A stretch of 64,000 nt of DNA from Diploptera punctata. Taxonomy: Eukaryota; Arthropoda; Insecta; Blattodea; Blaberidae. Where the stretch lies: the NCBI GenBank assembly GCA_030220185.1, contig JASPKZ010007286.1, forward strand, positions 806,001 through 870,000, given 5' to 3'. The notes under the pieces were generated by a model. That model made no database searches, was not told the DNA's origin, and worked only from the letters and a program-made list of their open reading frames with translations. Numbering within the stretch: the stretch's first letter is position 1; every line of letters begins with the position of its first letter. A program made the translations under genes and the position numbers. This document shows positions 7,508 through 60,440 of the stretch, in pieces.

Positions 7508-8234
7508 ATATTTGAAGAGAAAAATTTTCGCCTAGACTGGGACTCGAACCCGGGACCCTTGGCTTTCCGGGCCAAGTGCTCTACCAACTGAGCTACCGAG
7601 GCAAGTTACGATCTAGACGCAAATTTTTCTCTTATGTACATTGTAATTCCCTCGCGCCAAATGCTTGAAACCATAGCTTCTATCTTTGCAAATGGCGGCT
7701 TCTTAGTTAAGAAGACATTTATAGACTACTTTATAGCCAGTAGGGCTTCTATTGACGATTTTATTATTAATTTAACACTTCTCATTGAAGGATAAATTAT
7801 ATTTGAAGAGAAAAATTTTCGCCTAGACCGGGACTCGAACCCGGGACCCTTGGCTTTCCGGGCCAAGTGCTCTACCAACTGAGCTACCGAGGCGAGTTAC
7901 GATCTAGACGCAAATTTTTCTCTTATGTACGTCAATAGAAGCCCTACTGGCTATAAAGTAGTGTTAAATTCCCAATAAATGTCTTCTTAACTAAGAAGCC
8001 GCCATTTGCAAAGATAGAAGCTATGGTTTCAAGCATTTGGCGCGAGGGAATTACAACGTACATAAGAGAAAAATTTGCGTCTAGATCGTAACTCGCCTCG
8101 GTAGCTCAGTTGGTAGAGCACTTGGCCCGGAAAGCCAAGGGTCCCGGGTTCGAGTCCCGGTCTAGGCGAAAATTTTTCTCTTCAAATATAATTTATCCTT
8201 CAATGAGAAGTGTTAAATTAATAATAAAATCATC
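7508..8234. mobile_element. tRNA-Ser-like SINE foldback (three heads, one insertion)
   Basis: A single insertion flanked by aaaatcaaggtt (7496-7507, 8235-8246). It contains tRNA-like heads at 7530-7602 (-), 7821-7893 (-) and 8095-8167 (+). The outer minus and plus units form inverted arms of nearly 300 bp. The left outer end is short (stops at ..CTTCAAATAT) and the right is long (to ..AATAATAAAATC). Each 73-nt head folds as a cloverleaf with anticodon-loop CCGGAAA (GGA, with C33), so it is tRNA-derived and not a tRNA gene. Confidence 0.85.
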
Positions 8235-8352
8235 AAAATCAAGGTTCCTTAAATGTGTAGGCATATATCAACATTTAATTTATCTTCTAACAATTTCACA
8301 AAATATCTAAGAAATAAAGAAAACTTTATTATTAAAATGTATCTGTATTCGT

Positions 8353-8550
8353 GAATTAGAATTGGATGATGATGATGACCATATGATTTCGGGGACCGTT
8401 TGGGTCTTAAAGTTTTCCTGACATTTGTCTTACAGGTGAGGAAAAATCCTGATAAAAACCTCACCCAGAAAAACTGCCCCAACCAGGGATTGAACCCAGG
8501 CCCGCTGCGTAATAAGGCAGCATGCAACCTCGAGACCACAGCGGTGGACA
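8353..8550 (-). mobile_element. SINE-B fragment
   Basis: The minus-strand head CCACCGCTGTGGTCTCGAGG has a tRNA-like B box (GGTTCAATCCC). Then come TTCTGGGTGAGG, GACAAATGTCAGG and CGAAATCATATGG and a (GAT)n stretch. Further copies are at 13790-13982, 30483-30823 and 57823-58167. Confidence 0.75.
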
Positions 8551-8772
8551 TTTAGTTAATAATATTGATATGAAGATTTCAGAAGGCCATGGATTTATAA
8601 TAAAAGTCTAGGCCCAAAAACATTAGGTTATCTATTGTTATATGAATTGCTTAAAAACCTAATTAAGAATTGAAAACCATTGTTAAAAAACCATAACTTG
8701 GTTCCCAAAAAAAGATAATTTAAAGAGCAGTTTAAATGGATTTTTAAAAAGTACAAATTAATGTTATACTAT

Positions 8773-9059
8773 TTAACTTTCACAGGGAAAGAACACTATG
8801 AGGTTTAATTTAATAATTAAATTAATGTTTTTATTACCTCACCTTATATCCTTTTTCTTCTATACTGCAGTTTCGGAGCTTATCTCCATCGTCAGTAGCC
8901 TCTGGTCGACCGGTGTTATGTCGTTTCTTTGCGGTTTCCTTGCCAAGAAACGACATAACACCGGTCGACCAGAGGCTACTGACGATGGAGATAAGCTCCG
9001 AAACTGCAGTATAGAAGAAAAAGGATATGAGGTGAGGTAATAAAAACATTAATTTAATT
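8773..9059 (+). mobile_element. PLE-D foldback
   Basis: 287-bp palindrome flanked by a 16-bp TSD, attaatgttatactat (8757-8772, 9060-9075), the longest TSD seen here. Long end left (TTTCACAGGGAAAGAAC), short end right. The arms meet at about 8937-8944 within the codons for NDITPVDQ. Intact hammerheads lie on both arms. Confidence 0.9.
8974..9016 (+). ncRNA. Hammerhead ribozyme motif, PLE-D
   Basis: CUGACGA (8979-8985), one unpaired U, stem II GGAG/CUCC, GAAA (9000-9003), palindromic stem III ACUGCAGU and H17=A, with predicted cleavage after 9011. Stem I is CUA (8976-8978) with UAG (9012-9014). The inverted copy is at about 8857-8901 on the minus strand. The UAG immediately after the cleavage site is the stop codon of the PLE-D ORF in longer copies. 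Confidence 0.75.
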
Positions 9060-9293
9060 ATTAATGTTATACTATTTTGCTCCAGTGAGTTATCTAGGCA
9101 ATCTGATGGTTTTAAGTCTGAGCCGGGCAATTAAGATTGTACTAAATATCACAAGTTGTTACTCGACATAAAACATTATATGCTATTCCAAGGATTTTTC
9201 TTTCACACAAAAAAAAAGTATAGTTTTTTGTTGGGATTCATGATGTAAGACTATAAATCCAGAGAAATATCCATTATATCTGTAAATTCTTAT

Positions 9294-9622
9294 TTATTCA
9301 TAGTTCTTGTTCTTCCTTCCAAGGCCTGTTACAATCCTATAGAAAATTTTCCCTCCAGCATTCATGCTTTGGTCGTCATAAGTTTGATCCTTCCGGGAAA
9401 TTCTCGTATAAGACTTGGAAGCATAATAATAGTCCCTTCGATTGGTTGCTGGCCAAAGGAAGGCAAGACCAGTGGTCAGGCTTTTCTGGAGAAGGAAAGA
9501 AGAAATGGAAGAAAGAAAATACTCCCTAGCCCTCGGATGCTCTAATAGTGTCGGTGTGGAAAAAAACAAGAGCTAACCAAGAGAGGTTAGATAGTAAAGT
9601 TAAAAGAGTGCAAAACACAAGT
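9294..9622. repeat. Dispersed repeat with LINE-tail-like end
   Basis: Shares long blocks with 53625-54015: AGGCCTGTTACRATCCTATAG, CCCTAGCCCTCGGATGC and GAGAGGTTAGATAGTAAAG. The left part is the reverse complement of the 3' end of the LINE at 58983-59717. Family not identified. Confidence 0.6.
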
Positions 9623-9636
9623 AAGTGGAAGAAATT

Positions 9637-58370: not shown

Positions 58371-58500
58371 TTATCAGTATACACATATTTAACACAAAAA
58401 CAGACACAAAGACAGAGAGATACAAAAAACAGATAGGTTTTCACATATGATGAATGAATGTAAATAAATTTAAATAAATTACAAGTGTTTCAACACAAAC

Positions 58501-58742
58501 CTCGGGATTGGCTGGAAACCTGGGGGTCTGTGAAGGACTTGCTACTAGAACCAGTTCCATAGCCAGAGCTGTTGGATGATCGAGGTGGTGAAAAACTTCT
58601 CTCGTAACGTCGTCTGTGTTTTGAAGGTACTGCTGCCGCAGCACTGTTGTTAGTCTTGTCCTCTCCTCTCCTACCAGACACATTCTCATAGTCACCTTCA
58701 TAATTACTCAGAGTGTAACGACAATTTTGCAATGTGCAGCCC
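58501..58742 (-). CDS. SIPA1L: SIPA1L-like exon: Ser/Arg-rich linker
   Basis: Begins with 1 nt that completes PRR from the previous exon and reads [19 protein letters not shown], then an [14 protein letters not shown] motif and a Ser/Gly run. Acceptor ttttgcag|GGGC is good. The 3' end is uncertain. The consensus-like donor CGAG|GTTTGT at 58501 leaves 1 nt, which puts the next exon out of frame and into a stop. An alternative donor CCCAG|GTTTCC ending at 58520 is in phase 0 and keeps the frame open. RNA evidence would settle which is used, or whether a small exon is missing. Confidence 0.75.
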
Positions 58743-58833
58743 CTGCAAAATATAACATCACATATTCATAAACAGCTGTTTATAATAAATTCTCTATTTT
58801 GTATCAGATTTTGAAAATGTTATTGTTTTGTAC

Positions 58834-58949
58834 CTCCTTGGTGATCCGTCAGATAATGAAGGAATTACAGTAACAGTCACCAACATGGATGTCTTAAGAA
58901 GATCCACCATCTGATCATGTGAAAGTGTTGACACAGCTACCTTACATAT
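58834..58949 (-). CDS. SIPA1L: SIPA1L-like exon: end of PDZ domain
   Basis: Encodes [18 protein letters not shown], then [15 protein letters not shown], the C-terminal helix and strand of the SIPA1L PDZ domain. It joins the upstream exon as RLVE+ICKVAV, both in phase 0. Acceptor ttttcag|ATATG; donor AGGAG|GTACAA, leaving 2 nt. The next exon supplies the third base. The 91-nt intron that follows is the only short intron in the gene; the others are 1-5 kb and filled with repeats. Confidence 0.92.
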
Positions 58950-58982
58950 CTGAAAATTAAAATTTGTTTGATTAACAACGGG

Positions 58983-59717
58983 GATATATACCCATCAATA
59001 GGAACCTCAAACTCGATTCTATTCTTTTTGCAGACAATTTAGCGCTTCTGGCACTTTCCAAAAATGATTTGCAACGATCAATGTATAATTTTCAAAAAAT
59101 AGCTGTTAAATTTAATATGGAAATATCAATTAACATTTTATGGGAAGGACCCCATAAAAAGTAATATCTGTCTCCAGAATAAAATTTTAGAGAGATCTAA
59201 TCAATTTAAATATCTTGGATATCTGGGATGAAAAGGATATCCCTGAAAAAATTACTAGTTATAATAAAAGTTTGGGAATTATTAATCAAGTTATGAAACC
59301 ATCCCTTATACAAAAAAAAAACACCAAATTATGTTTATATAACACTTTGACTAGACCAGTGTTGACCTATGGTAGTAAAGCATGGACACTAAAAAGACAA
59401 CATGAAAGCAGAATAATGGTTTGTGAAATGAGATTCATGCGCAGAACAGTGGGTTACGCCAGATGGGATCGGAAAAGGAACACCGATATCTTAAAAGAAT
59501 TGAAGACTACGCCGATTTTGGAATATATTAAACAGTACCAACTAAATTGGAAACACCATCTTGAAAGAATGAGTTCAAATCGGATCCCCAAAGCTGTTTA
59601 TAATTATATACCAAGAGGACGAAGATCTCTGGGCCGTCCTATGAAATGCTGGAGGGAAAATTTTCTATAGGATCGTAACAGGCCTTGCCCTAATACATGG
59701 AAGGAAGAAGAAGAAGA
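58983..59717 (+). mobile_element. LINE RT C-terminal fragment
   Basis: Reads LFADNLALLALSKNDLQ (YADD box decayed to FADN), LTRPVLTYGSKAWTLKR, CEMRFMRRTVGYARWDRKRN, NYIPRGRRSLGRPMKCWREN, with a (GAA)n tail. Antisense to SIPA1L in an intron. 59720-59930 is unassigned intron. Confidence 0.8.
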
Positions 59718-59929
59718 CAACTGTCCTTGATAGTATCTGGGGAGATCAATGGATTCAAAAGTTTGTGAGTTCAATCTTGAGACAAGTAAGTGAAATTAAA
59801 AAATGTACATATTTACATTGAATTCATTAAAAAATATGGGAGCAAAAATATAATAATAGACAACCAAACCAAGCTTGCCAAAACAACACACTCTGATTAA
59901 TATCAGGATCAGTGAAAAATACACCATTT

Positions 59930-60440
59930 CATGAATGAATAAGTCATCTCTTTTTACATCTTACCTCATAGTTTATGTTTTCTTAAACTTGGGAATTGAA
60001 TTATATTTGAAGAGAAAAATTATACACTCAGACCGGGACTTGAACCCGGGACCCTTGGTTCTCTAGACCAAGTGCTCTACCACCTGAGCTACCTGAGCAA
60101 GTATCAATCTAAATGAAAATCTTCCTCTATATACGTTTTAATTCCCACCTACCAAATGCTATGAAGCCTTTGCTTCTATCTTTGCAAATGGCAGCTCTTT
60201 TATTAAGAAGACATATTTGGGAATTATACATTACATTATAAATGCCAGTATGGCTTCTTTCGATGTTTTTATTATTAATTTCATACATCTCAATGATGGA
60301 TAAATCATATTTGAAGATAAAAATTAATTCTTATATATTTATCCATCATTGAGATGTATGAAATTAATAATAAAAACATGGGAACTGAAGTTTTCAAGAG
60401 AACATCTCTCTCATTTTCAACCGACATTATGACTACTGGT
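59930..60440 (-). mobile_element. PLE-C split by a tRNA-Ser-like SINE
   Basis: PLE-C pieces 59930-60000 and 60378-60440 (CTCATTTTCAACCGACATTA). The SINE 60001-60377 has head 60025-60097 (-), short end left and long end right, between gggaattgaa and gggaactgaa. The SINE broke the ribozyme near its stem III. Confidence 0.72.

Follow-up and report, generated by a model that had tools for sequence, protein, structure and literature searches.

How does a repeat that encodes no protein come to be inserted head-to-head between short duplications of its target? The question is raised by a 64,000-nucleotide stretch of the Diploptera punctata genome (contig JASPKZ010007286.1, positions 806,001 to 870,000 of the forward strand; hereafter the window), which belongs to the 3.12-Gb assembly GCA_030220185.1 and carries insertions of a tRNA-bearing, protein-less repeat family. 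We use tSINE as shorthand for this family and h positions as coordinates along its unit. An initial annotation, made from the letters alone, had listed eleven such insertions as copies of a short interspersed element (SINE) and proposed that they are mobilised by Penelope-like elements (PLEs). In this study, the window was analysed together with twenty 10-kb stretches of the same genome (264 kb in total). Because the 10-kb stretches were picked for the presence of the 16-nt border motif TTTTTCTCTTCAAATA, this sample is enriched in tSINE. The genomic footprints make it very probable that tSINE is integrated by PLE endonuclease and reverse transcriptase (RT). The proposal of PLE mobilisation is supported by four signatures that tSINE and PLE-type insertions have in common, namely foldbacks, two borders about 40 nt apart, a symmetric cut motif and target-site duplications (TSDs) that mostly measure 12-13 bp.

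Foldback insertions and their two borders

All eleven insertions are head-to-head, an orientation that had been claimed for most of them, and all are flanked by target duplications, although these range from 10 to 14 bp and not from 11 to 14 bp as first described. In ten of the eleven, one border lies right after ...CTCTTCAAA(TAT); the second is displaced outwards by about 45 nt and follows ...AATAATAAAAACAT or a variant. The foldback at 7508-8234 (arms -, -, +) has its short border on the left, its long border on the right and the 12-bp TSD AAAATCAAGGTT at 7496-7507 and 8235-8246. The same arrangement was found at 17270-17667 (TSD 13 bp), at 19320-19956, 20230-20483, 35154-36211, 37001-37550 and 38854-39610 (12 bp each) and at 60001-60377 (11 bp with one mismatch). 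It is reversed, long left and short right, at 21273-21730 (14 bp) and 30459-31107 (10 bp). The claim of one short and one long border failed only at 42477-42770, where the left border is short, the right one is intermediate (about 20 nt beyond the short point) and the TSD is 12 bp. An additional tSINE foldback outside the eleven (11558-11900) is short on both sides, with a 12-bp TSD containing one mismatch. Later nested insertions are present in three of the eleven intervals: a SINE-B copy in 30459-31107 (match at 30640-30823), a foldback of about 590 bp (around 35392-36020) in 35154-36211 and a PLE mini-foldback (around 37206-37295) in 37001-37550. Both nested foldbacks carry their own TSD by eye.

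Across the sample, 27 foldback candidates were inspected by eye and 21 of them have a TSD; 19 of these 21 are short/long. The duplications measure 12 bp in twelve cases, 9-11 bp in four and 13-14 bp in four, and one is an imperfect duplication of 19 bp. Within one insertion the two arms often stop at different unit positions, such as h161 and h91 at 42477. Several tSINE starts fall at h231-241 by eye; these were considered as RNase-Z-like 5' ends on the 3' side of the tRNA, a reading that was dropped since they look the same as RT stops.

TSD-flanked inverted arms are also what a foldback or inverted-repeat DNA transposon would leave, but such an origin is scarcely credible here. One outer end reaches about 45 nt farther than the other, and the inner arm ends differ. 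Moreover, head-to-tail units exist, with 28 junctions at a period of about 305 bp in a scripted tally of the sample, and an array of a partial unit and two units lies at 27600-28268 (+). Single-orientation clusters mostly stop at the same two points: 33 of 61 end in the short window, 18 in the long window and 10 elsewhere, a count that includes a few foldbacks because the script loses some opposite arms. Two such copies in the window, 52388-52622 (-) and 57528-57783 (-), terminate at the short border. Tail-to-tail clusters were absent from the scripted tally of the sample.

Footprints shared with Penelope-like elements

The short/long geometry was also recovered without reference to any family. 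A scan of the sample for palindromes and close inverted repeats gave 155 usable foldbacks, for which a zone was defined by one border at the arm end and the second 26-50 nt farther out; an exact TSD of at least 11 nt was required. Zone foldbacks with a TSD made up 13 of the 49 overlapping tSINE and 37 of the 106 others. Ten permutations of the right flanks yielded 0 and 0-1, respectively, and therefore the geometry together with the TSD is beyond chance. Ten of the 13 tSINE members are clean and three are doubtful: the L017:2865 foldback belongs to a PLE in which tSINE sits, the TSD of L028:1464 is a microsatellite, and in L012:2803 two copies far from each other are joined. In the other class, the PLE terminal motif ATGAGG..CCTCA was found in 27 of 37 foldbacks, compared with 52 of 2000 random 160-nt windows, and PLE coding sequence lies inside 13 of 37. 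This PLE terminal hairpin motif was found in none of the 13 tSINE zone foldbacks.

SINEs are known to rely on long interspersed elements (LINEs), and LINE frames with RVT_1 are present in the window. A LINE might thus be proposed to mobilise tSINE, with the foldbacks as twin-priming inversions or later rearrangements, but we consider this highly unlikely. The two fixed borders, one on each side, come with the PLE cut motif. In addition, the 50 zone foldbacks contain neither LINE-like sequence, probed with three LINE-like window frames of which one has a Pfam RVT_1 match, nor SINE-B sequence, despite 72 LINE-like matches within the sample; among the 105 foldbacks outside the zone, four hold LINE-like sequence and two hold SINE-B. 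The 18 SINE-B copies of the sample include no adjacent pair. The initial annotation had described SINE-B and the LINEs as free of such foldbacks, which held for the SINE-B and LINE-like sequences probed.

Tails and cut sites of tSINE instead resemble those of PLEs. The border offset is about 40 nt in both kinds of insertion, and the TSD mode is 12 for tSINE and 12-13 for the non-tSINE (PLE-type) zone foldbacks, in line with the similarity first noted. When cut sites are oriented with the long border on the right, both classes have AAAY 5' of the TSD and RTTT 3' of it (AAAY/TSD/RTTT). A matrix from 36 PLE-type sites (the 37 minus one) scored the 21 tSINE sites 7.3 standard deviations (SD) over shifted positions, and the reverse test, the tSINE matrix on the PLE-type sites, gave 6.9 SD. 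The base adjoining each TSD edge was excluded from the matrix because the delimitation of TSDs biases it. Individual sites exceeded their own shifted mean in 18 of 21 cases for tSINE and in 31 of 36 in the reverse test. A PLE protein has been reported to cut both strands with a preference for ATT (PMC11167929).

Both elements also meet in the genome, as tSINE inserts next to PLE tails. Genome-wide there are 90,013 copies of the PLE tail motif (222 for the reversed control), and the tSINE short end is joined to this motif at 379 junctions, with 0 in the reversed control. By our own arithmetic, about 20 junctions would be expected if all 97,329 tSINE border motifs were randomly placed short borders. 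Among 12 junction loci that were fetched, nine are tSINE adjoining a PLE tail and three are not. Five of the nine inspected loci have a TSD of 12-16 bp across the PLE tail (CCTCATAATG or a variant): 16 bp at L038, 14 bp at L039, 16 bp with one mismatch each at L041 and L043, and 12 bp at L016:4687-4985. The TSD across the tail is just 8 nt at L035 and none was found at L036, L037 and L042, the last of which was cut by the choice of its left edge. At L034 (L010:7499-7592), a tSINE fragment (h167-261) lies exactly at the short border of a PLE, and no 12-bp TSD could be seen by eye; a single RT may have switched here between PLE and tSINE RNAs as templates. Hybrid PLE/tSINE insertions as a class were discarded, as nested insertions or PLE copies lying alongside account for most of the neighbours inspected in the 264 kb, with L010:7499 and L013:6879 as possible exceptions.

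A potential source of the machinery is at hand. All 150 candidates that were scored matched a PLE fragment of the window used as query (212,739 candidates at first look), and their open frames reach 866 aa. Judged by their predicted frames, autonomous-looking PLEs occur in the genome: in L033, RVT_1 and GIY-YIG lie in a single frame of 850 aa, which is flanked by a 441-bp direct repeat (99.3%) in a tandem array.

The tSINE unit, its fold and a proposed mechanism

A profile search of the sample detected 84 tSINE clusters with a unit length of about 301-305 bp. Genome-wide, TTTTTCTCTTCAAATA has 48,601 + 48,728 exact copies (97,329), and the reversed control has 4 + 4. The tRNA-like domain occupies about h160-232 and is directly followed by AAAATTTTTCTCTTCAAATA; the short border lies at about h258 and the long border at about h300-303. 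In the + arm of the foldback at 7508-8234, the tRNA-like domain is at 8094-8169 (+; Ser-GGA by ARAGORN). The motif TTTTTCTCTTCAAATA at 8173-8188 (+) comprises the T run and the 3' strand of the stem closing the tRNA domain and ends at the short border, and the extension to the long border point, which has a small hairpin, spans 8189-8234 (+). Since units follow each other head-to-tail, the long end continues into the next unit. The original label, tRNA-Ser-like SINE, is loose. A tRNA-like domain is there, but it sits at about 160-232 of a tandem unit of about 305 nt, and the Ser name depends on the anticodons called by ARAGORN: all 22 calls in the window are inside tSINE copies, 18 of them Ser (13 Ser-AGA, 5 Ser-GGA) and four Ala-GGC. 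With its tRNA in the 3' half of the unit rather than at the 5' end, tSINE is not a classical SINE. For the same reason, and because a T run follows the tRNA, an RNA polymerase III (Pol III) transcript from it would be expected to terminate before both borders. No frame with RT and GIY-YIG was found in tSINE, whose units of about 305 bp have no space for one; the element is therefore non-autonomous.

In 30 hand-chosen tSINE copies, 88.8% of the cells of the cloverleaf and the 4-bp tail hairpin are paired (82.8% when shuffled) and 15 pairs are changed on both sides (7.4 when shuffled). None of 500 shuffles, which ignore relatedness, reached the observed value on either measure. Double changes affect five of the seven acceptor-stem pairs. 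The acceptor stem lies outside the Pol III promoter, and hence it seems from the aligned copies that the tRNA fold is kept as a fold, although swaps between tRNA genes could give the same pattern. The tail hairpin is CTTC/GAAG in one of the two main subfamilies and CATC/GATG in the other, which amounts to few independent events. Units in one insertion may differ by several percent: in L028 the two - units are 93.9% identical and the inner - unit and the + arm 98.1%, as expected from copying of multimeric RNAs from mixed arrays, whereas other insertions are less clear. A second element sharing the tail without the tRNA was not recovered, as the regions upstream of 15 stretches (mostly partial copies) share only an inverted match of 22-28 nt between two of them.

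From the genomic footprints, PLE-dependent integration can be read as follows. The two target strands would be cut about 12 bp apart at AAAY/N12/RTTT, and each freed 3' end would prime reverse transcription on tSINE RNA, probably a multimeric transcript of tandem arrays. One side would begin at the short site (about h258, just 3' of the tRNA-carrying stem) and the other at the long site (about h303), and the complementary DNAs (cDNAs) would often extend into the adjacent unit. End-joining of the two cDNAs would leave them head-to-head between duplications of about 12 bp, or a single one would survive. The PLE protein may read the shape of the RNA (the tRNA on its closing stem and the tail hairpin) and not PLE sequence. 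For PLEs, two internal RT start sites leading to a two-start tail have been called unique to this class and were reproduced in vitro (PMC11167929). Rotifer PLEs are described with inverted pseudo-long terminal repeats (pLTRs), an optional 31-bp tail and TSDs, and palindromes at their inverted junctions were used to argue for self-priming (PMC3846280). Head-to-head arms of tSINE might likewise arise by snap-back of a single strand copied by the PLE machinery, without priming from both cut strands. This we regard as unlikely, given that the arms of one insertion often stop at different unit positions (h161 and h91 in the example above), that the two outer borders represent different start sites and that extension from both strands is reported in vitro (PMC11167929).

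Several observations weigh against integration by PLE proteins. Two of the 21 TSD-bearing foldbacks depart from the short/long rule (11558, short/short; 42477-42770, short/intermediate). Six of the 27 candidates have no recognisable TSD (L009:1954, L011:4714, L012:5322, L017:4506, L018:2820 and L024:9152), and those in L012 and L018 appear long/long. None of the 13 near-full SINE-B copies of the sample has a TSD of at least 9 nt, and SINE-B therefore offers no TSD length for comparison. In the published in vitro work the start site did not differ from one strand to the other (PMC11167929), while each foldback here uses one of each; the strict pairing of borders is thus an addition to the known mechanism and not a match with it. 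Sequence comparison gave no link either. The tSINE unit (shuffle p = 0.85), tail (0.72 and 0.51) and extension (0.74 and 0.32) align with L033 or the 37 PLE-type ends no better than shuffles do; for these sampled PLEs, the comparison of 3' tails that had been suggested found nothing in common. The stretch TAATAAAAACATTAAT, first noted as common to the SINE tail and PLE-D, is at chance level in a shuffle test. Finally, a motif scan detected a hammerhead-like core in 0 of 18 tSINE units, compared with 15 of 37 PLE-type ends (110 matches in the whole 264 kb). Rfam found no hammerhead in one tSINE array, which says little because it found none in the PLE-D region either, and an earlier strict scan was uninformative, with zero matches anywhere, PLEs included.

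The origin of tSINE is less clear than its mobilisation. It is an even bet, in our view, that tSINE is the first case of a SINE-like element partnered by PLEs, with which it shares no sequence and by which it is recognised via RNA shape, and that the tRNA fold replaces the hammerhead in processing or presenting the tandem transcript. Alternatively, tSINE might be a PLE reduced by the loss of its frame and hammerhead, to which a tRNA was added; the mobilisation would be the same and the origin different. This second origin is possible, if doubtful. The layout is PLE-like, with tandem units and both start sites just ahead of the next unit, as in L033, but unit, tail and extension are at shuffle level against L033 and the 37 PLE-type ends, and the hairpin motif of 27 of the 37 others is absent from all 13 tSINE zone foldbacks.

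Known systems and further features of the window

PLEs, with their GIY-YIG endonuclease and telomerase-like RT, resemble tSINE in head-to-head and tandem copies, cut motif, TSDs of 12-13, insertion into PLE tails, two 3' start points and an optional tail of about 30-45 nt. They differ in that tSINE has no protein, no detected hammerhead and no sequence similarity to them, and has a tRNA fold. Metazoan (non-LTR) retrozymes are the closest known kind to the tandem tSINE unit of about 305 bp. They are described as non-autonomous, with units of 170-400 nt in tandem and TSDs of more than 4 bp (PMC7229834, PMC7761336, PMC11722881). However, what defines retrozymes in these reports is circular RNA together with a hammerhead of type I, and no hammerhead was detected in tSINE; foldbacks and two-start tails are not part of their description in the portions available. 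Mobilisation of retrozymes by PLEs has already been proposed (PMC7761336), and as reported it rests on shared ribozymes and co-occurrence. tRNA-derived SINEs share with tSINE a length of about 300 bp, the lack of coding capacity, a tRNA-like domain and a very high copy number, but the tRNA of tSINE lies in the 3' half ahead of a T run and not in a 5' head, and its footprints are PLE-type and not LINE-type. A host gene within a PLE of Adineta vaga is a reported case of PLE machinery moving sequence without PLE coding, with inverted pLTR and TSD (PMC3846280); there the cargo lies between PLE repeats, whereas no PLE sequence was detected in tSINE. No report of a PLE-dependent SINE was found in the literature, judged by titles and the starts of abstracts among the matches listed. 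The nearest phrase was 'short, nonautonomous Penelope elements', used for butterflies in the part of the source available (PMC6685494).

For PLE mobilisation in trans, tSINE provides evidence from footprints that are resolved almost to the base and come from a very large family. It is also a small substrate of natural origin, with two start sites, for work on a class of retroelements about whose mechanism little is known. The footprints weaken the assumption that non-coding tRNA repeats need LINE partners, and a tRNA element copied by PLEs would, if true, be a new partnership among jumping genes.

PLE foldbacks obeying the short/long rule are also present in the window. They lie at 1733-2520 (GIY-YIG frame 1817-2446, TSD 13), 24564-26800 (GIY-YIG frames 24630-25049 and 25727-26473, TSD 12), 32480-33209 (frame 32565-33134, almost the same as the GIY-YIG frame at 1817, TSD 12) and 61637-62655 (frame 61743-62300 with GIY-YIG at E 5.8e-4, slightly below the Pfam cut-off, TSD 12). 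A foldback of PLE-D ends at 49190-49649 follows the rule with a TSD of 13; another, at 52893-53294, is short on the left with the long end farther right. Rfam microRNA matches at 52962-53226 (MIR7533 and others), below gathering scores and on a near-perfect PLE foldback hairpin, look like artefacts. PLE-D ends also form a tandem array with a period of about 407 bp at 3426-4640. The PLE insertion at 37206-37295, inside a tSINE copy, is only about 70 bp long and yet already a foldback, long at one end and short at the other.

SINE-B copies are located at 8360-8550, 13801-13984, 30640-30823 and 57821-58005. Read in reverse complement, SINE-B resembles a tRNA head followed by an (ATC)n-like tail. 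Another foldback family, with the ends ACCTCAACGG..GAATTTTACTAGT, is represented at 15016-15405 and 35392-36020, the latter with its own 11-nt TSD by eye. Two other foldbacks, L021:4963-5314 and L028:8460-8820, obey the rule but end in another tail (..GATTTTCATCAAGTAAACACCAACTCAATTG) and do not carry the ATGAGG..CCTCA motif.

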